Positions 7,728 through 30,678 of a stretch of 36,890 bases of DNA are shown piece by piece. Both the position numbers and the translations under genes were made by a program. Each line of letters starts with the position of its first letter. The first letter of the stretch is position 1. This stretch comes from a virus, in the IMG/VR virus record IMGVR_UViG_3300035698_016732, positions 1 to 36,890 of that record; one strand, 5' to 3'. A model generated the notes under the pieces. It searched no databases. It saw only the letters and a program-made list of their open reading frames with translations, and was not told the DNA's origin.

Positions 7728-7806
7728 GGGGGCTAAAGGTAGCGTCCGATAGTATCTTAAATTAGATGCAATGTCGGAAACACCAGTTCAATTCTGGTAG
7801 CCTCCA
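7728..7806 (+). ncRNA. tRNA-like structure with atypical anticodon arm
   Basis: A 7-bp acceptor stem is clear: GGGGGCT (7728-7734) pairs with AGCCTCC (7799-7805), followed by A and then TCA instead of CCA. A perfect T arm, ACCAG-TTCAATT-CTGGT (7782-7798), has the canonical TTCRA loop. The middle does not fold as a normal tRNA: TCCGA (7745-7749) pairs with TCGGA (7774-7778), enclosing an inner GTATCT/AGATGC hairpin (7752-7757/7764-7769), and there is no standard D stem or 7-nt anticodon loop. It may be a degenerate tRNA, or a tRNA mimic with a long arm as in the tRNA-like domain of tmRNA. It lies just upstream of a tRNA-His gene. Confidence 0.55.
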
Positions 7807-7842
7807 TCAAATTTATAGCCTCGATAATGTTTGATGTGTAAA

Positions 7843-7891: not shown

Positions 7892-7966
7892 GTGAGTGTA
7901 GCATAATTGGTAATGCACTTGACTGTGAATCAAGACTGATAGGGTTCGATGCCCTCACTCACCCCA
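7892..7966 (+). tRNA. tRNA-His (anticodon GTG)
   Basis: The acceptor stem GTGAGTG/CACTCAC (7892-7898/7956-7962), D arm GCAT-AATTGGTA-ATGC, anticodon arm CTTGA-CTGTGAA-TCAAG with anticodon GTG, and a T arm with TTCGATG loop all fold well. C73 and an encoded CCA (7964-7966) follow. C73 is the expected histidine identity base, but the base before G1 is T in the DNA, so the extra G-1 would not pair with C73 from the genome as usual. The T stem has only four clear base pairs (AGGG/CCCT) in this alignment. The gene probably supplements host His decoding during infection. Confidence 0.9.
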
Positions 7967-11006: not shown

Positions 11007-11024
11007 AAATTCCTCTTTTCTCTT

Positions 11025-11055
11025 AAAAAACAATCAGGGCAGTCACCCACCCTGA
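11025..11055 (-). terminator. Intrinsic-terminator-like hairpin in the leader of the mom-like gene
   Basis: On the minus strand, TCAGGG (11055-11050) and CCCTGA (11039-11034) form a 6-bp stem with a 10-nt loop, followed by TTG and six T residues (11030-11025). The T run ends only 4 nt before the AAAAGAGG ribosome binding site of the mom-like gene. This can end the ssb-like operon transcript or act as an attenuator for mom. Confidence 0.65.
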
Positions 11056-11066
11056 CTATCCTATAA

Positions 11067-11185
11067 AACTAAGTAGTCGATCATAGTTAATTATAATTTA
11101 TATACACTACATACTATAATTACTTCTATATTTTCTGTATTTAAGAATATTTTCAGGAGGTATCCCCTTTCTTTACTACTTAGTT
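11067..11185. repeat. 11-bp inverted repeat enclosing AT-rich spacer between ssb-like and mom-like genes
   Basis: AACTAAGTAGT (11067-11077) and ACTACTTAGTT (11175-11185) are perfect inverted copies 97 nt apart. The second overlaps the stop codon of the ssb-like gene. Between them is a nested inverted pair (TAATTATA/TATAATTA type) and, on the minus strand, the string GGATACCTCCT, which resembles the anti-Shine-Dalgarno end of 16S rRNA. The spacer is 150 nt in an otherwise gap-free operon, so it probably carries regulation or a small RNA. Confidence 0.55.
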
Positions 11186-11777
11186 ACATAAACTTTTCAA
11201 CGCCACCTATTGGTATAATATCTTTAATATTAGTAGGTACTTTAGTCTCTCCAGCTTTATTAGTATAAGCCTTACCTAAAACACAACTAATTATAGCTTC
11301 TGCACCAATAGCTATTCCTAAGTCGCAGAAATTCTTCTCGTCAAATCCTACAGTAGTATCCACACTATCTATTAGCGGATGATATTCTCCCTTTGCATCT
11401 GCTTTTTGAGTCCTAATAAGAAATTTATGCAGAAATATAGCTCCTCCCTCACCACTTCTTGGTGATAATGTTAGCCATACAAATCTACCTACTTGAGCCG
11501 GTCCTGTAATTCTCCATGTTACATTTATTTTTGGTTTATTTTTAGCTGTAAAACCAAACTCTGCTTTGTCTATCATTGCCTGATATCTACCCATTGGTAC
11601 AGGAGTATTATCATATTCTGTTTTGGTATCTTTTAAAATTATTGCATCACTTTGATCAAGCGGTGCTGCTTCTCTGCTCATCACCTGTGGTGTTGGTACT
11701 GAAGCTGGGGCAGGTGCGGTTACACCTCCACTTTTCATTTGCTCTATAACTGCATCTGGATTATATGTTTCTGTCAT
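11184..11777 (-). CDS. SSB-like protein (DUF669 type)
   Basis: The 197-residue protein begins at ATG 11777 with AAAGGAAC upstream and overlaps the Sak4-like gene by 4 nt (ATGA). After a Pro/Ala-rich N-terminus, residues about 60-190 resemble phage DUF669 proteins: PMGRYQAMIDKAEFGFTAKN, KINVTWRITGP, VGRFVWLTLSP, a long middle segment and GETKVPTNIKDI near the end. DUF669 proteins are found beside Sak4 and RecB-like nucleases and are thought to bind single-stranded DNA with an OB fold. Here it would coat single strands during replication and recombination. The neighbours support this strongly. Confidence 0.75.
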   Translation of the reverse strand: MTETYNPDAVIEQMKSGGVTAPAPASVPTPQVMSREAAPLDQSDAIILKDTKTEYDNTPVPMGRYQAMIDKAEFGFTAKNKPKINVTWRITGPAQVGRFVWLTLSPRSGEGGAIFLHKFLIRTQKADAKGEYHPLIDSVDTTVGFDEKNFCDLGIAIGAEAIISCVLGKAYTNKAGETKVPTNIKDIIPIGGVEKFM

Positions 11778-24717: not shown

Positions 24718-26068
24718 CTAAAGCTTTATAATAATCTTCCCTTGATATATCTAATTCCATAGACTCTACTTTACTATTTAAAATTTCAAGCCCTCTTTCG
24801 TCTACAGAATTTTTATATAATATGTAATAAAATCTAGTGGGATGTGTTTGAGTTTCTCTATGGATTCTTTTTTCTGCTTGTATGTTATCATGCAATCCTA
24901 GTTCATACCCAATAAAAATAGCTACTTTAGCAGCAGTTAAAGTCATGGTGGTACCACTCTTAATGACACAAATAAGAACTTTATTTTTGGTTTTGGAATT
25001 TTGAAACTCATTTTGAATTATTTTATGTTCTTCATAAGACATGCCACCCTGTACAGAATATAATTCTATACCTTTAATATTATTAAGTTCATCTTTAATA
25101 AGTTGAACAGCCGGCACAAAAGGCGTGAACACTACGCAAGGATTGCCTTCTGATAATTCTTCTATAACTAATTCTTTTACTATATTTAAGGCACCCCCAT
25201 TATCATTGAAACCTAATATCTTAGGAGATACCATGAGTTGCCTACATCTTAACATATTAGTAAGCTTATTTTGAGTTATAAGAAACTGACCATCTTCGTT
25301 TAAATACATTTCTTTTCTCAACGTATCATATAACCTTTGTTGCTTTACTGTCATTTCTACTGCTATAGGTTGTCTTGTCCTTGAGGGTAAATAAGAATCA
25401 TCAACTATCCTTCGTCTATAATTATCCAACATTTTATTAAAGGCTTTTTTATCTTTTGCATAATTCTCAATACTCATGCCAAATTGTCCTTGCACAATTA
25501 TACAATGTTCATTGACAAAACGCCAATAACTTGTAAATACATCAGGATCTATAATAGACAATGGACCAAACCAGTCGGCTGGGGATTTTCTTCTAGGTGT
25601 ACCAGTCAAAGGTATAACATATGGAATCAATTTAGCAACCGACTTAGTAAATTTATGAAACTTAGACTTTCTATTCAATAATCCAAATAAATGATATTCA
25701 TCAATTATAAGCGTCTTAAAAAACATAGGTCCAATGTTAGCTAATACTTCTGGGTATAATTTAGCAGTGGTTATTAAAAAGTTTAAGTCCATAGTAGTTA
25801 TAAATTTTTGTAGTTTTTCTTTTCTTTCTTTTGGTGTTCCTGCATAAATATGCGAGGGTTCATCATACCATTTTATGAGTTCTGTTTCCCATACTATTAA
25901 CCCTGGTTTAGTACACACTATCAAAACTGGAAATGGTTTTGGGTTTGTAAATAAAGCATCAAGTACTATTTTTGTTTTACCAGTTCCAGCAATATCAGCA
26001 AGAATAGTGCGTCTATTATGATCTAATAAAAATTGTGTGCCTGTAATCTGATGAGGTCTAAGAGTCAT
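24692..26068 (-). CDS. SNF2-type DNA helicase/translocase
   Basis: The start is ATG 26068 (TAATG overlap with the upstream stop, AGAGGTATA in front). The 458 residues show SF2/SNF2 motifs in order: LRPHQITGTQFLL (Q-like), TILADIAGTGKTKIVLDAL (motif I), LIVCTKPGLIVWETEL (Ia), TLIIDEYHLF (II, DEYH), PLTGTPRRK (III), CVVFTPFVPAVQLI (IV), and QAEKRIHRETQ (VI, with an Arg finger). Phage SNF2-like helicases act in replication, repair or recombination. The neighbouring gene is an MT-A70 methyltransferase. Confidence 0.88.
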   Translation of the reverse strand: MTLRPHQITGTQFLLDHNRRTILADIAGTGKTKIVLDALFTNPKPFPVLIVCTKPGLIVWETELIKWYDEPSHIYAGTPKERKEKLQKFITTMDLNFLITTAKLYPEVLANIGPMFFKTLIIDEYHLFGLLNRKSKFHKFTKSVAKLIPYVIPLTGTPRRKSPADWFGPLSIIDPDVFTSYWRFVNEHCIIVQGQFGMSIENYAKDKKAFNKMLDNYRRRIVDDSYLPSRTRQPIAVEMTVKQQRLYDTLRKEMYLNEDGQFLITQNKLTNMLRCRQLMVSPKILGFNDNGGALNIVKELVIEELSEGNPCVVFTPFVPAVQLIKDELNNIKGIELYSVQGGMSYEEHKIIQNEFQNSKTKNKVLICVIKSGTTMTLTAAKVAIFIGYELGLHDNIQAEKRIHRETQTHPTRFYYILYKNSVDERGLEILNSKVESMELDISREDYYKALVDKSKEKC

Positions 26069-26610
26069 TATACCTCTAACCCCCAACTATCCCAACCTTC
26101 AACTCGTTGTCTTGCAAATAGTTCTATTCTTGGTAAATCACCAAACAGTTTGACTATGTTTTCTCTAACACTATTAGGTTTTTGACTATGTTCCATTATT
26201 CTATCATCTACTATTTGATGTACTGATTTAGAAATCCTCTTTAATGTTTTGCCTTTAGTAGCTAACAAACACAATTCAGTGTTTGCTCTAGTGTAATACC
26301 CCATACCCCAAAACCAAGTATTAGCTATTTTATTTCTCTTAACCCATGTAAATCCTATTGTCTTATATGTAAAACCCCATTTTTCTATAAGTTCTATTCC
26401 CTCTAATAGACAAGGAGCAGTAACCCATAAAAATAGAACTGCATTATCCTCAGTAATATCACTAATAGGCAATGCTTGAATATTTTCTTTATTCATTGTA
26501 TGGTAATGACTTTCAGCAGTTCTACCAATACCAGTATCTTTAGGCCATACTTTATAACTCCAAGGAGGATCAGCATAAATTATATTATATTTCTTATTAG
26601 GTAGTGGCAT
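26068..26610 (-). CDS. MT-A70 family adenine methyltransferase
   Basis: The 180-residue protein starts at ATG 26610 (a TTG lies one codon upstream). MT-A70 features are clear: YNIIYADPPWSYKVW (DPPW motif), ESHYHTMNKENIQALPI, AVLFLWVTAPCLLEGIELIE, WGFTYKTIGFTWVKRN, GMGYYTRANTELCLLATKG, and the C-terminal HSQKPNSVRENIVKLFGDLP and ELFARQRVEGWDSWG. In phages this family makes N6-methyladenine in DNA, and mRNA is the target in eukaryotes. It is the second clear DNA methyltransferase here and the third candidate adenine-modifying enzyme counting Mom. Confidence 0.92.
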   Translation of the reverse strand: MPLPNKKYNIIYADPPWSYKVWPKDTGIGRTAESHYHTMNKENIQALPISDITEDNAVLFLWVTAPCLLEGIELIEKWGFTYKTIGFTWVKRNKIANTWFWGMGYYTRANTELCLLATKGKTLKRISKSVHQIVDDRIMEHSQKPNSVRENIVKLFGDLPRIELFARQRVEGWDSWGLEV

Positions 26611-26944
26611 CAACCAACTCCTCCATAGAATAATAAATCGGTATACCTAATTCCTCAGCTCTTTTGATTTCTGCTATGGTACCTTTGCTAAATTCGTAAT
26701 CAGGTAATACTAATACTGCTTGACTTACTTCCAACCAGGACATTGAATATGCTTGAATCATATCTAAAGTAATCTTCTCATCATGTCTCAACGCCAAAAA
26801 GAATTGAAAATCAATGAATGGGGAAAAAGGATGATAACCAAGCAAAACTAATTCTGCTGATACCCTAATACCTTTTCTAAGATTCTCTAAAAATTGTAAG
26901 CAATTTGGATCTGACATTGTGCCAGCTAAATATATTCTTTTCAT
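26597..26944 (-). CDS. Nucleoside 2-deoxyribosyltransferase-like protein
   Basis: The 115-residue protein has GAGGAGATTAAAA before its ATG. It opens with RIYLAGTMSDP and later has SMSWLEVSQAVLVLPDYEFS, KGTIAEIKRAEELGIPIYY, the pattern of the deoxyribosyltransferase/DUF4406 group ('D.vv.l......S.G...Ei..A...g.p'). It may process nucleosides or act on nucleotide derivatives; neighbours (a dNTP pyrophosphohydrolase-like gene and a nucleotidyltransferase) support a nucleotide role. Confidence 0.72.
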   Translation of the reverse strand: MKRIYLAGTMSDPNCLQFLENLRKGIRVSAELVLLGYHPFSPFIDFQFFLALRHDEKITLDMIQAYSMSWLEVSQAVLVLPDYEFSKGTIAEIKRAEELGIPIYYSMEELVDATT

Positions 26945-27318
26945 TTTAATCTCCTCTTAATAATATTTTCTAATGGTCCCATATCTATGGGTTCTCCATT
27001 CATTTTAGAAATAACCATCTCTACACCAATAAGGTTAAATATTAAGGCACTTACATGATCCTCTTCTGTTTCACCTTTAAGCCAAGCATTAAAATGTCTT
27101 TCAGCACTAGCTATAAAACGTTCAAGTTCAGATTCAGTCTTTGCTTTTTCCCAATTACGTAAAGTATATTTCTTTGCACCTTTGGTGTAATGTTCTGCTA
27201 ACCTTTCTCTGATAAACATTGGTACTAAATCATATCTGATTTTTTCACAACTATCCCTTTGCATACCAGTAGAAAACTCTTGCCTCTTACCTGAATCTTT
27301 TATTTTATAATCATTCAT
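26941..27318 (-). CDS. dATP/dGTP diphosphohydrolase-like protein (DUF5664 type)
   Basis: The 125-residue, largely helical protein matches the DUF5664/MazZ-like group: FSTGMQRDSCEKIRYDLVP, LAEHYTKGAKKYTLRNWEKA, LERFIASAERHFNAWLKGET and EEDHVSALIFNLIGVEMVI. The E/D-rich helices (RHFNAW..GE..EDH) are typical metal ligands of all-alpha pyrophosphohydrolases. Related phage proteins remove dATP or dGTP from the nucleotide pool in 2-aminoadenine phages. No PurZ-like synthetase is seen here, so a pool-shaping role tied to DNA modification is only a guess. Confidence 0.72.
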   Translation of the reverse strand: MNDYKIKDSGKRQEFSTGMQRDSCEKIRYDLVPMFIRERLAEHYTKGAKKYTLRNWEKAKTESELERFIASAERHFNAWLKGETEEDHVSALIFNLIGVEMVISKMNGEPIDMGPLENIIKRRLK

Positions 27319-27505
27319 TTCTTTCCACCTCTTTCAAAATTGCTTTGCATTTACTGCATCTTATTGTATAAGGGTTTTGATTAAATATATTAATTAGTTT
27401 ATTAATTGCTCTACCGGTTATACCTTTTGATTCATATTTTAAGGATAAACACTCTTCCCTTAGAAAAAAATCTATTTTTGTTCCGTTGCATTTAAGACAT
27501 ATCAT
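27311..27505 (-). CDS. Small zinc-ribbon protein, 64 residues
   Basis: Start ATG 27505 is preceded by AAGGTAGGAACT; the longer in-frame extension overlaps the neighbouring gene. The first Cys pair is ICLKCNGTK and the second is IRCSKCKAIL near the C-terminus (CxxC...CxxC), so it probably binds zinc. The middle is a basic helix. It overlaps the next gene by 8 nt. Confidence 0.7.
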   Translation of the reverse strand: MICLKCNGTKIDFFLREECLSLKYESKGITGRAINKLINIFNQNPYTIRCSKCKAILKEVERNE

Positions 27506-27679
27506 AGTTCCTACCTTCCTTATATAATTCTTTTTTAAAGTATGTACATTTACGACATACTTTATACATATCCTCAGTGCTAAATTTATGAGCAATCATA
27601 TAGTCATAGTTCCAGCACTCATCAGTTTTTTTTTGCAGTGATCTTTATTAAGCTTTGCTTCTTTTTTGGATATCTTCAA
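27492..27679 (-). CDS. Cys/His zinc-finger-like gene needing a -1 shift at an A9 run
   Basis: A TTG (27679) with a perfect AAAGGAG 7 nt upstream opens a frame reading MKISKKEAKLNKDHCKKK, which then runs out after a run of nine A (27634-27626 on the minus strand). In the -1 frame the sequence continues convincingly as TDECWNYDYMIAHKFSTEDM and YKVCRKCTYFKKELY to a TAA at 27492, with the final CxxC. Joined, it would be about 62 residues with a C...C...CxxC pattern. The A run is a classic slippery stretch, so programmed frameshifting or transcript slippage is possible. A sequencing length error in the homopolymer, or a broken gene, are the alternatives. No conventional start serves the second part alone. 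Confidence 0.55.
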
Positions 27680-28217
27680 GTAAAAACTCCTTTAATTCTA
27701 TTGGTTTATAATCCTGATTCTCCAGGATAAATGGTCTACACCATTCAGGTACTTGCTCATTTGGTCTATTATGTATATGTCCACATATGTTAATGTCGAA
27801 ATTACTTCTAGGCTTTTCAATCATAACTTCTGAATGAGCTACGTCTCTTGCTAATTCCCTGGTTACAGTTTTAATAGGTGGAAATGGATAAGGTCTGTGG
27901 CTGAATAAAACCCTTAAACCATATAAATACATAGTGAAGTTTCTAGCAACGAAGTCCCAACCATGATTCATATACCAAGTCATAGATTTTCCATCATGGT
28001 TTCCGAGGATTAGCCAAGATTTACATTTAATTTCATGAAATATACCATGCCAGTAAACATCATCACCTAGAGAAACATCACCTAAATGAATTAGTAAATC
28101 AGTGTCTAAATCAATTAAATTTTCACATAGCATTTGTGTCCAACATTCAGGTCTATCGCAATATTCTTTTATATTTTTGTGTTCAAAGTGGGTATCCGAA
28201 ATAATATGTATTTTCAA
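27648..28217 (-). CDS. Calcineurin-like metallophosphoesterase
   Basis: The 189-residue protein starts at TTG 28217 with AAAGG 7 nt upstream and overlaps the previous stop (TTGA). All motifs are intact: IISDTHF (DxH), LIHLGDVSLGDD (GDxx), LILGNHDGK (GNHD), LFSHRPYP and INICGHIHNRP (GHxH). These bind two metal ions and cut phosphoesters. It is close in size to phage and bacterial YfcE-like proteins. Unlike the phosphoesterase at 6898-7722, motif I keeps its Asp. Confidence 0.9.
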   Translation of the reverse strand: MKIHIISDTHFEHKNIKEYCDRPECWTQMLCENLIDLDTDLLIHLGDVSLGDDVYWHGIFHEIKCKSWLILGNHDGKSMTWYMNHGWDFVARNFTMYLYGLRVLFSHRPYPFPPIKTVTRELARDVAHSEVMIEKPRSNFDINICGHIHNRPNEQVPEWCRPFILENQDYKPIELKEFLLEDIQKRSKA

Positions 28218-28906
28218 AAGTTCGCCTTTCTCACCTTAAGTAACCAGGCATTGATCTGATCTATGTCTGTTGTTTTGTCCGGATTATGGTCATAGGCTTT
28301 ATTAACCATAGTTTCCCACTCATATGTCTTCTGTATTACCTCACCAATTTCATATTCTCCTGATTTAAACCTCTTTAAAATTTCAAAATCATCCACTTCA
28401 GTCATGTCAACTATTAATTCTTGAAAAGTCAAAAGATAATATGCTTGTATCAAAGTGCGTAAATATGCAGTTGCATATTTATGAGGTCTGCAATCCTTAT
28501 TATCTAAGAACTTTTTCCTTTGATTTAAACCATACCCACGAAATGCATCTCTTACTCCCCTACTATTCCATACTCTTGGAAACAGTGCCCTTAGTGAGGT
28601 CCCTAAATCATTAATTTCTACTACTGGAGCTTTAAACACTTCTAAAATTGTAGGGTTACACTTGGTAGCCATCATCAAAAAATGCCCTAATTCCCACATA
28701 GTATTATCCGCTGCCTCTTTAGTATCACCCTCTTGCCAATTTGTAGTGAGCTTAGGTGCGTTGAGTTTCAGCAGTTCTTTGGTAGGTGCAAGGAAGACTC
28801 CACGGTAATCATAATCTGAATCAGGAGTTGATAAACCGTGAGCTCGACTGCCGACTAAAGTTTTGAGTATTATGTTGTAAGTTTTTTTGTCTATCATTTC
28901 AATCAC
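28214..28906 (-). CDS. Nucleotidyltransferase (YcgL/DNA-pol-beta superfamily)
   Basis: GTG 28906 is chosen as start: AGGAG lies 6 nt before it and it overlaps the upstream stop as GTGA; an ATG three codons later lacks a good site. The 230 residues show the nucleotidyltransferase signature TLVGSRAHGLSTPDSDYDYR (GS...SDxD), then GVFLAP and helices such as WELGHFLMMATKCNP and YLRTLIQAYYLL. This matches the family sometimes called YcgL (PF10127), common in phages. It probably transfers a nucleotide to an unknown RNA, protein or small molecule. Confidence 0.85.
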   Translation of the reverse strand: MIEMIDKKTYNIILKTLVGSRAHGLSTPDSDYDYRGVFLAPTKELLKLNAPKLTTNWQEGDTKEAADNTMWELGHFLMMATKCNPTILEVFKAPVVEINDLGTSLRALFPRVWNSRGVRDAFRGYGLNQRKKFLDNKDCRPHKYATAYLRTLIQAYYLLTFQELIVDMTEVDDFEILKRFKSGEYEIGEVIQKTYEWETMVNKAYDHNPDKTTDIDQINAWLLKVRKANF

Positions 28907-29079
28907 TTATTTCTCCTAAAAAGTTTCTGCATATATTTTATCCTAAATAGCTTACTACGCCTACCAATAGAAATACCAATGTAGTACCAAATATCTTCGG
29001 TTATAAACCATTTAATATACAGTAGTTGCATATGAAATTTTTGTTTCTTGCTTAATTTATCTAATCCTATTAATATCAT
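28903..29079 (-). CDS. Small basic hypothetical protein, 58 residues
   Basis: ATG 29079 has AAAGGATTGGA upstream and starts inside the end of the membrane-protein gene; the TGA stop overlaps the nucleotidyltransferase GTG start (GTGA). The peptide (MILIGLDKLSKKQKFHMQLL, then an aromatic IKWFITEDIWYYIGI stretch and a basic tail) is coupled on both sides. No family recognised. Confidence 0.65.
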   Translation of the reverse strand: MILIGLDKLSKKQKFHMQLLYIKWFITEDIWYYIGISIGRRSKLFRIKYMQKLFRRNK

Positions 29080-29281
29080 TCCAATCCTTTATAGCTCTTA
29101 TAAATCCCTTTAATATATCAAACACCACGTTAAATGCCATGGTGATCCACAATGGTGAAAATATCCATACCCATTGCCAATCTAAAACATGTGTCAGTCT
29201 TAGAATTAAAAAGACTATAACGGTTACTATTGCCAGACTTATTAATCTGGTTCCTAATGTTGATTTATTTTTGTTTGTCAT
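29057..29281 (-). CDS. Small two-span membrane protein (Fragile-X-F-like)
   Basis: The 74-residue protein has AAGGAGGAGAA before its ATG. Two hydrophobic spans are visible (SLAIVTVIVFLILRLTHVLD and WVWIFSPLWITMAFNVVFDI) after a basic N-terminus. The LDWQWVWIFSPLWI segment is typical of small phage proteins annotated as transmembrane Fragile-X-F-like. Function is unknown; it sits in the inner membrane by its topology. Confidence 0.75.
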   Translation of the reverse strand: MTNKNKSTLGTRLISLAIVTVIVFLILRLTHVLDWQWVWIFSPLWITMAFNVVFDILKGFIRAIKDWNDINRIR

Positions 29282-29385
29282 TTCTCCTCCTTATCCTCAT
29301 CTGGACATATAAATACCATTATAATACCTAATGTAAAAGCAGAAAAGAAGCCTATTGTAAAAGATAGCCAACTCCACCATTCCAT
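29278..29385 (-). CDS. Small membrane peptide, 35 residues
   Basis: ATG 29385 has AAGGAGTAAAAT upstream and the stop overlaps the next ATG (ATGA). One hydrophobic span (WLSFTIGFFSAFTLGIIMVF) is followed by a charged tail (PDEDKEEK). It resembles the tiny membrane peptides common in this type of phage genome. Confidence 0.7.
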   Translation of the reverse strand: MEWWSWLSFTIGFFSAFTLGIIMVFICPDEDKEEK

Positions 29386-29410
29386 ATTTTACTCCTTAAT
29401 CAATTTTAAT

Positions 29411-29515
29411 AAAAACGAGAGGGATATCTTGACCGGACACTTTGTTAATCGTTTCAGCCTCAGGCGATCTATATCCCTCTCTTAGCCTCCATCTAAAAAG
29501 TGTCAGATTAGATGG
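29411..29515 (-). ncRNA. Structured 3' region: two hairpins with loop-loop match, ending in terminator
   Basis: On the minus strand an 8-bp hairpin (CCATCTAA/TTAGATGG, 29515-29508/29496-29489) overlaps the stop codon of the gene at 29508. It is followed by an 11-bp stem (GAGAGGGATAT/ATATCCCTCTC, 29481-29471/29427-29417) and GTTTTTATT, an intrinsic terminator. The 11-nt loop of the first hairpin contains GACACTTT, and the 43-nt loop of the second contains the exact complement AAAGTGTC (29443-29436), so the loops can pair. The segment is richer in G+C than its surroundings. A start-less open frame also runs through it. I read it as a terminator with tertiary contact or a regulatory RNA; the ligand or purpose is unknown. 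Confidence 0.6.
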
Positions 29516-29747
29516 GTTTGCCAGACATCTTTGAATCTTCTTTAAAAATACTATTTAACTGCTGAACATATTCAAATATTGCACTAATGTTAGCAGTAAC
29601 CCATCCTTTTTCGTCTGAATAAGTTTTATCTGCTCTAACTAATTCTTTTGTTACTTTCTCTTCCATCTCTGATTCATACCACATGAGAGTAATATATATT
29701 TTATCTTCATTTACCTCTGTTATTATTTTATAATCTTTTCCAATCAT
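29508..29747 (-). CDS. Hypothetical protein, 79 residues
   Basis: ATG 29747 has AGAGGAAAA upstream and overlaps the previous stop (ATGA). The small alpha/beta protein begins MIGKDYKIITEVNEDKIYIT and has a central strand-turn-helix with WYESEMEEKVTKEL. The last codons lie in the first hairpin of the structured region. No family recognised. Confidence 0.65.
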   Translation of the reverse strand: MIGKDYKIITEVNEDKIYITLMWYESEMEEKVTKELVRADKTYSDEKGWVTANISAIFEYVQQLNSIFKEDSKMSGKPI

Positions 29748-29920
29748 TTTTCCTCTTCCTCTCTCCTAATCAAATGACAATCTTTTGATTTATTAAATCC
29801 TAAATCACATTCAAAATGAACTGTGCATATCTCATCTTCACCCATAAAGTCAGGTATACCATCCATGTGATTATGTGGACAAGTTTCGTCCATACAATCT
29901 GTTGGGACTTGTTTAGTCAT
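29744..29920 (-). CDS. Small Cys/His-rich protein, 58 residues
   Basis: ATG 29920 has AAAGGATAAGAT upstream; the stop overlaps the next start. Cys and His are grouped as DCMDETCPHNHMDG, then ICTVHFECDLGF and KDCHLIRRE, enough for one or two zinc sites. Ends in a Glu run. It is too short for a definite fold. Confidence 0.7.
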   Translation of the reverse strand: MTKQVPTDCMDETCPHNHMDGIPDFMGEDEICTVHFECDLGFNKSKDCHLIRREEEEK

Positions 29921-29955
29921 ATCTTATCCTTTCACACTTGCTAGTGGCTTTAGTG

Positions 29956-30678
29956 TTATATACATGAGCAACTCTCCCATTCAAATAGATTAAAATAATT
30001 ACCTAAGAAATATTCTATCCTAGTTTTGACTTTATCTAAATCCTTATGAATATCTTCTTCCCATAAGTTAATAAATTTATATCCTTTAAATTCTAACCAT
30101 AAACGTCTTTTTCTATCTTTAAACCTTTTATTTATTGCATAATCAGTATTATAGTATTTAGGATTACCATGCCAATAATCCCCATAACACTCAATAATAA
30201 ATTCATTATGTATAAGAAAATCTACATTATAACCACCTATAAAGGTATTAGTACTATAGTCTATTTTTTCCATCATTCCAATATCATTTAAGACTATCTT
30301 AATTATTTGCTCTATCTTAGATTTTTTATGCTTAATACCAGCTTTAATAAAAGGTAATATTTTTTGATGCTTTTCTTCTATAGACAATACATTCCAATTA
30401 ATTTTCTTACTAAGTTCTCTTTTTTGAATAATTTCTTTTGTACTAGGAATTTTATAATATGTTGAATTATCTCTTATTTTAGCTGATTCTTTCATAATCT
30501 TTTTGGTACTTTCAGAATGTTTCTTACCATAAAACGGATTTAATTTACCTAATCGTACACATTTAATACATAGACCGCTTTTACTTCTATCATCTATAAT
30601 TTTACCACAATTTAAACAAGTACGATTTAATATACGCTTTATTGGTATTCTTTCGCTGGTTATTACGTTTTTGTTCAT
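29956..30678 (-). CDS. Homing endonuclease, Vsr-like (EDxHD type) with zinc finger and NUMOD3
   Basis: The 240-residue protein has AAGGAGTTAAT before its ATG. Residues about 20-45 form a zinc finger (RTCLNCGKIIDD...GLCIKC), followed by a NUMOD3-like DNA-binding motif (NPFYGKKHSESTKKIMKES). The C-terminal half is a very-short-patch-repair-like nuclease: KIEQIIKIVLNDIG, YNVDFLIHNEFIIECYGDYW, HGNP and FKGYKFINLWEEDI, as in I-Bth0305I/I-TslI-type enzymes. It is a free-standing gene in the early operon beside the RuvC-like gene and overlaps it by 4 nt. It probably cuts a cognate site in related phages and spreads by repair. Confidence 0.85.
   Translation of the reverse strand: MNKNVITSERIPIKRILNRTCLNCGKIIDDRSKSGLCIKCVRLGKLNPFYGKKHSESTKKIMKESAKIRDNSTYYKIPSTKEIIQKRELSKKINWNVLSIEEKHQKILPFIKAGIKHKKSKIEQIIKIVLNDIGMMEKIDYSTNTFIGGYNVDFLIHNEFIIECYGDYWHGNPKYYNTDYAINKRFKDRKRRLWLEFKGYKFINLWEEDIHKDLDKVKTRIEYFLGNYFNLFEWESCSCI

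Follow-up and report, generated by a model that had tools for sequence, protein, structure and literature searches.

The virus record IMGVR_UViG_3300035698_016732 is 36,890 nt long and was analysed over its full length, referred to here as the window. Its minus strand holds a tightly packed operon of small genes and replication genes, in which neighbours mostly overlap or abut. The element considered here lies on this strand in a 122-nt intercistronic gap between an ORF of 79 amino acids and one of 35 amino acids. It is placed mid-operon, with several same-strand genes ahead of it, and promoter-like matches in its vicinity are at chance level. The features of the locus are the following.

26068-30678: accessory island with a RuvC-like nuclease on one side and an SNF2 helicase on the other; its content varies among syntenic relatives.
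29508-29747, minus strand: upstream ORF of 79 aa, of unknown function, from the ORF call and with coding-like codon usage.
29489-29515, minus strand: hairpin P1 (CCAUCUAA / UUAGAUGG), 8 bp with an 11-nt loop UCU-GACACUUU; exact inverted repeat with arms at 29489-29496 and 29508-29515, 11 nt apart.
29508-29510, minus strand: UAA stop codon of the upstream ORF, within the 5' arm of P1.
29497-29504, minus strand: GACACUUU in the P1 loop, 5' strand of an 8-bp complement.
29417-29481, minus strand: P2 terminator stem (GAGAGGGAUAU / AUAUCCCUCUC), 11 bp with a 43-nt apical region; exact inverted repeat with arms at 29417-29427 and 29471-29481, 43 nt apart.
29436-29443, minus strand: AAAGUGUC in the P2 loop, 3' strand of the 8-bp complement.
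29436-29443 and 29497-29504: the 8-mer inverted repeat GACACTTT/AAAGTGTC, 53 nt apart.
29408-29416, minus strand: U-tract GUUUUUAUU directly after P2, read from the sequence.
29278-29385, minus strand: downstream ORF of 35 aa, hydrophobic, preceded by AAGGAG and with coding-like codon usage; the first gene past the terminator.

The accessory island encodes here, among others, an RlaP-type RNA-repair nucleotidyltransferase, a phosphoesterase and an MT-A70 protein. A gene for a NUMOD3 and DUF559-type endonuclease (29956-30678, minus strand) is found about 440 nt upstream of the element; its product is probably a homing or very-short-patch-like nuclease.

The original prediction had described two hairpins sharing an exact 8-nt loop complement and ending in a terminator with an 11-bp stem, and this description is correct for the minus strand. 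Indeed, an inverted-repeat search recovers three perfect repeats at the site, corresponding to P1, P2 and the 8-mer, with the linker AGGCUAA between P1 and P2 and the U-rich tail GUUUUUAUU at the end. The region had also been described as less AT-rich than its surroundings, as is borne out by a GC content of 42.9% against about 32% around it. P2 contains 5 GC pairs in its 11 bp and is among the longest perfect stems of the window, being the sole one of those with such a U-rich tail. In plus-strand orientation the tail reads TTAGCC, so no terminator is present in that direction. Two of the usual marks of an intrinsic terminator are thus found, namely a stable GC-containing stem on the transcribed strand and a U-rich tract after it, whereas the third, a short loop, is not, with 43 nt instead of up to about 13 nt. 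A standard terminator scan, set to loops of 3-8 nt, did not list P2. Loop length serves as a criterion in searches and is not required by the mechanism; as the 43-nt apical region is longer than usual, the element is said here to work like a terminator and is not filed as a canonical one.

Folding of the minus strand gives z = -3.3 to -3.7 relative to shuffles, and the plus strand folds more weakly. In the full-length RNA, predicted pair probabilities reach 0.92-0.98 for P1 and 0.95-1.0 for P2, and most of the 43-nt apical region may pair internally.

Other structured RNAs are encoded in the same window. A second structured intercistronic gap of the operon (11020-11190, minus strand) has an 11-bp long-range stem, AACUAAGUAGU/ACUACUUAGUU, that encloses hairpins followed by a strong terminator-like hairpin with U6; with z -5.7 it is more structured than the element at 29411-29515, and it has no Rfam match above gathering score. 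On the plus strand, a tRNA-like RNA (7728-7806) stands beside a tRNA-His (7892-7966). It combines an acceptor stem GGGGGCU/AGCCUCC and a T-arm ACCAG-UUCAAUU-CUGGU with a long arm that replaces the D and anticodon arms; it scores 22.5 bits with the Rfam tRNA model, under the 29-bit cut-off, and is not listed by ARAGORN. The stretch GAUGGAGGCUA (29483-29493, minus strand), made of the P1 3' arm and the linker, is exactly complementary to the 3' acceptor strand of this tRNA-like RNA (7798-7808, plus strand), and 11-nt matches of this kind occur at chance level across the window. As regards possible trans targets, other parts of the window are complementary to the element at or below the chance level.

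A coding origin of the element was considered and rejected on account of the start codon, codon usage and homology. According to this explanation, the frame 29402-29554 (minus strand, 51 codons), which crosses the element, would be joined to the upstream ORF by a frameshift and the hairpins would be incidental. The frame does run uninterrupted from 29554 to a stop codon that shortly precedes the next ribosome-binding site, but an open frame in one of the three is expected in 6.7% of shuffles, and no ATG, GTG or TTG occurs near its beginning. Its codon usage (-0.14) falls below the 2nd percentile of the phage's real gene segments, searches of PHROG, Pfam and phages yield no homologue, and the neighbouring ORFs score as coding whereas the gap does not. 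The coding explanation is therefore judged very improbable. The 51-codon frame weakly recalls an HTH-like RWRLREGY..PEA motif, without significant homology.

The original prediction had further proposed a structured, terminator-ended RNA outside known families, in agreement with the Rfam covariance models, none of which matches the element at gathering score or at E <= 10. In collections that may lack records nearly identical to the window, blastn against phages and plasmids yielded no match or fragments expected by chance, the sites retrieved by four pattern scans of IMG/VR were all unrelated and for the most part coding, and one genome-collection scan gave a single distant match. Phage relatives exist at roughly 30-50% protein identity; a protein search with three genes found no close ones. 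A Cas4-like alignment search led to 80 loci; for 44 of these, the complete records contain no DNA similar to the element. Six records are syntenic for the RuvC-like nuclease and the SNF2 helicase, four of them also for the primase. The interval from the RuvC-like nuclease (30675) to the SNF2 helicase (24692) lacks the element and its surrounding genes in all six and is occupied by other genes or by almost none, and the gap stretches of L119 possibly corresponding to the element are not structured. This places the element in a variable accessory stretch.

One explanation of the anatomy is that P2 is a plain intrinsic terminator, next to an unrelated hairpin at the stop codon, and that the 8-nt complement is a coincidence without a role. 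Several shuffling and scanning experiments bear on this reading. The 8-mer is present in the window only at its two sites, with 1.3 occurrences expected by chance on both strands. When the terminator was fixed and the upstream 60 nt and the loop were shuffled, a stem plus complement of at least 16 (observed 8+8) arose in just 11 of 60,000 dinucleotide shuffles. Both results argue against a coincidence. Among whole-window shuffles, 2 of 614 reach a score of 25, which is the score given by the script to the real element, its true score being 27. With looser settings, a corrected scan over 1.5 Mb of DNA from other phages recovered a single independent site with a score of at least 27, located within coding sequence, and a comparable chance site per roughly 1.5 Mb is compatible with a plain terminator. 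The same holds for the wider duplex between the upstream region and the loop, the energy of which is ordinary (p ~0.2), for the internal partner that the P2-loop strand finds in the full-length fold, and for the lack of conservation evidence for the complement. Taken as a whole, the anatomy is unlikely to arise by chance, with odds per window between about 1 in 50 and 1 in several hundred, which is no extreme improbability; as the motif was picked after being seen, it is not beyond chance. The plain terminator is the second choice, rather unlikely yet ahead of a kissing-loop RNA.

In the latter explanation, P1 and P2 coexist and their loops pair over 8 bp. Such a contact, kissing or pseudoknotted, was part of the original prediction; it turns out to be sterically possible, whereas the fold prediction has AAAGUGUC paired within the P2 loop and the complement can also serve a competing nested helix. 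Regarding geometry, the P1 loop leaves 3 nt on one side of the complement and 0 nt on the other. The deep-groove phosphate distance of an ideal A-form helix is about 12-16 A at 7-8 bp, which 3 nt can reach, so that these flanks suit an H-type arrangement. The exact 8-nt complement and the stability of both P1 and P2 also favour the contact, and RydC offers a precedent of a pseudoknotted small RNA that needs its fold for stability (PMC4337610). Against it stands the predicted state of the full-length RNA, in which AAAGUGUC is mostly paired in a GCC..GGU hairpin inside the P2 loop and the unpaired probability of this 8-mer is near 0 at 5 of its 8 positions. Holding both 8-mers single costs 6.2 kcal/mol (from -36.2 to -30.0), which is roughly what the competing hairpin is worth. 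An 8-bp loop-loop helix would repay about this amount, depending on a pseudoknot penalty whose range is an assumption drawn from general pseudoknot energy models, and the kissing state is thus possible. On such rough estimates, the hairpin in the P2 loop and the pseudoknot differ by a few kcal/mol at most, and the kissing state is at best level with the hairpin. No homologues are at hand to show covariation. If formed, the contact may pre-organise the long-loop terminator, or serve as a protective cap at the 3' terminus, either of the transcript or of a processed small RNA. The kissing reading, these roles included, is considered unlikely.

The complement can also be engaged otherwise while the RNA is being made. 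Two alternative pairings are predicted for the nascent transcript.

29436-29504, minus strand: nested helix, a candidate antiterminator, formed by GACACUUUUUAG (29504-29493) with UUAA-c-AAAGUGUC (29448-29436); 12 bp with one bulged C.
29510-29530, minus strand: alternative hairpin P0 (AGAUG..GG / CC..CAUCU) at the end of the upstream ORF, present in the minimum-energy fold of the nascent RNA.

The nested helix, predicted as the best fold as long as the P2 3' arm is not yet transcribed, occupies the leading 4 nt of the 3' arm of P1 and so excludes P1. It frees the P1 5' arm, for which P0 competes with P1, for upstream pairing. Its predicted probability depends on the 3' end of the RNA, with 0.89 at 29436, 0.83 at 29431, 0.56 at 29425 and 0.00 at 29417, where P1 and P2 reach about 0.99 in the predicted ensemble. 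In the nascent RNA, the nested helix beats P1 by just 0.8-1.4 kcal/mol, which is within model error. When the stems were fixed and the loops shuffled, P1 was displaced as strongly in 1.9% of cases (p = 0.019). The opposition of P1 and P2 to the nested helix resembles the layout of a terminator/antiterminator pair, as a prediction with an energy gap of about 1 kcal/mol. As the nested helix uses the 8-nt complement, it provides a reason for the complement to exist that is as good as a kissing contact.

This resemblance leads to a preference for attenuation: the element is read, tentatively, as a mid-operon intrinsic terminator of the minus strand built as an attenuator, ahead of the plain terminator and, further behind, the kissing-loop RNA. 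The basis of this reading is the anatomy, the position, the U-tract, the non-coding character and the predicted competition. It is favoured by the perfect 11-bp stem, which contains 5 GC pairs and has a U-rich tail solely on the coding strand, by the 122-nt gap amid genes that mostly overlap or abut, by the fold z-score of -3.3 to -3.7, by the ensemble switch from the nested helix to P1 and P2, by the stop codon in the P1 5' arm and by the non-coding gap. It is weakened by the absence of homologues in the searched sets, by the 0.8-1.4 kcal/mol advantage of the nested helix, by the ordinary duplex energy and by a 43-nt apical region, which is much longer than terminator loops usually are.

In the attenuator proposed here, P1 and P2 would make up the terminated state and the GACACUUU/AAAGUGUC complement would be the core of the competing, antiterminator-like nested helix, which could hold the nascent RNA until the last P2 strand is made. 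The balance between these states would then determine how much polymerase continues into the downstream genes, by termination and regulated readthrough, and ribosomes reaching the stop codon inside P1 might modulate this balance. Since the stop codon lies in P1, ribosomes completing translation of the upstream ORF may be expected to open this hairpin and to mask GACACUUU, with a possible effect on termination. The most probable role of the element is that of a small on/off or throttle point acting on the downstream genes. A bolder variant, regarded as quite improbable, is a translation-coupled tertiary-fold terminator, in which the terminator hairpin would be locked by 8-bp kissing with the stop-codon hairpin and ribosomes would unlock or lock it; a protected small RNA might also result.

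Should the competing helices be real, one short intercistronic RNA would grade expression inside the long operon of an uncultured phage, and the stop codon in the first hairpin would tie this grading to translation of the upstream gene. As it stands, the element is one candidate among many phage terminators.

Several known systems share features with the element. Intrinsic (Rho-independent) terminators likewise have a GC-containing stem directly before a U-rich tract in an intercistronic gap. Their loop has a median of 4 nt in Term-seq data of several species, and TransTermHP accepts up to 13 nt (PMC12207403), whereas the element has a 43-nt apical region and a complement to the loop of the preceding hairpin. 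RydC is an enterobacterial, Hfq-dependent RNA with a 5' seed and a pseudoknot fold needed for its stability (PMC4337610). The element has a similar pseudoknot potential and a U-rich terminator end, but it differs from RydC in position and sequence, and Hfq dependence and the 5' seed are features of RydC. The put RNAs of phage HK022, of about 70 nt, are located near early promoters and suppress termination (PMC9378689). Like them, the element would be a phage RNA of two stem-loops acting on transcription, but it ends in its own terminator, stands mid-operon and has no sequence match to them. Finally, in contrast to attenuators of the trp-leader type and riboswitch platforms, the element is intercistronic instead of being part of a 5' leader, neither a leader peptide nor a ligand domain is recognised in it and its competition is a predicted one; what it shares with them is a pair of predicted, mutually exclusive folds, P1 and P2 on one side and the nested 12-bp helix on the other.
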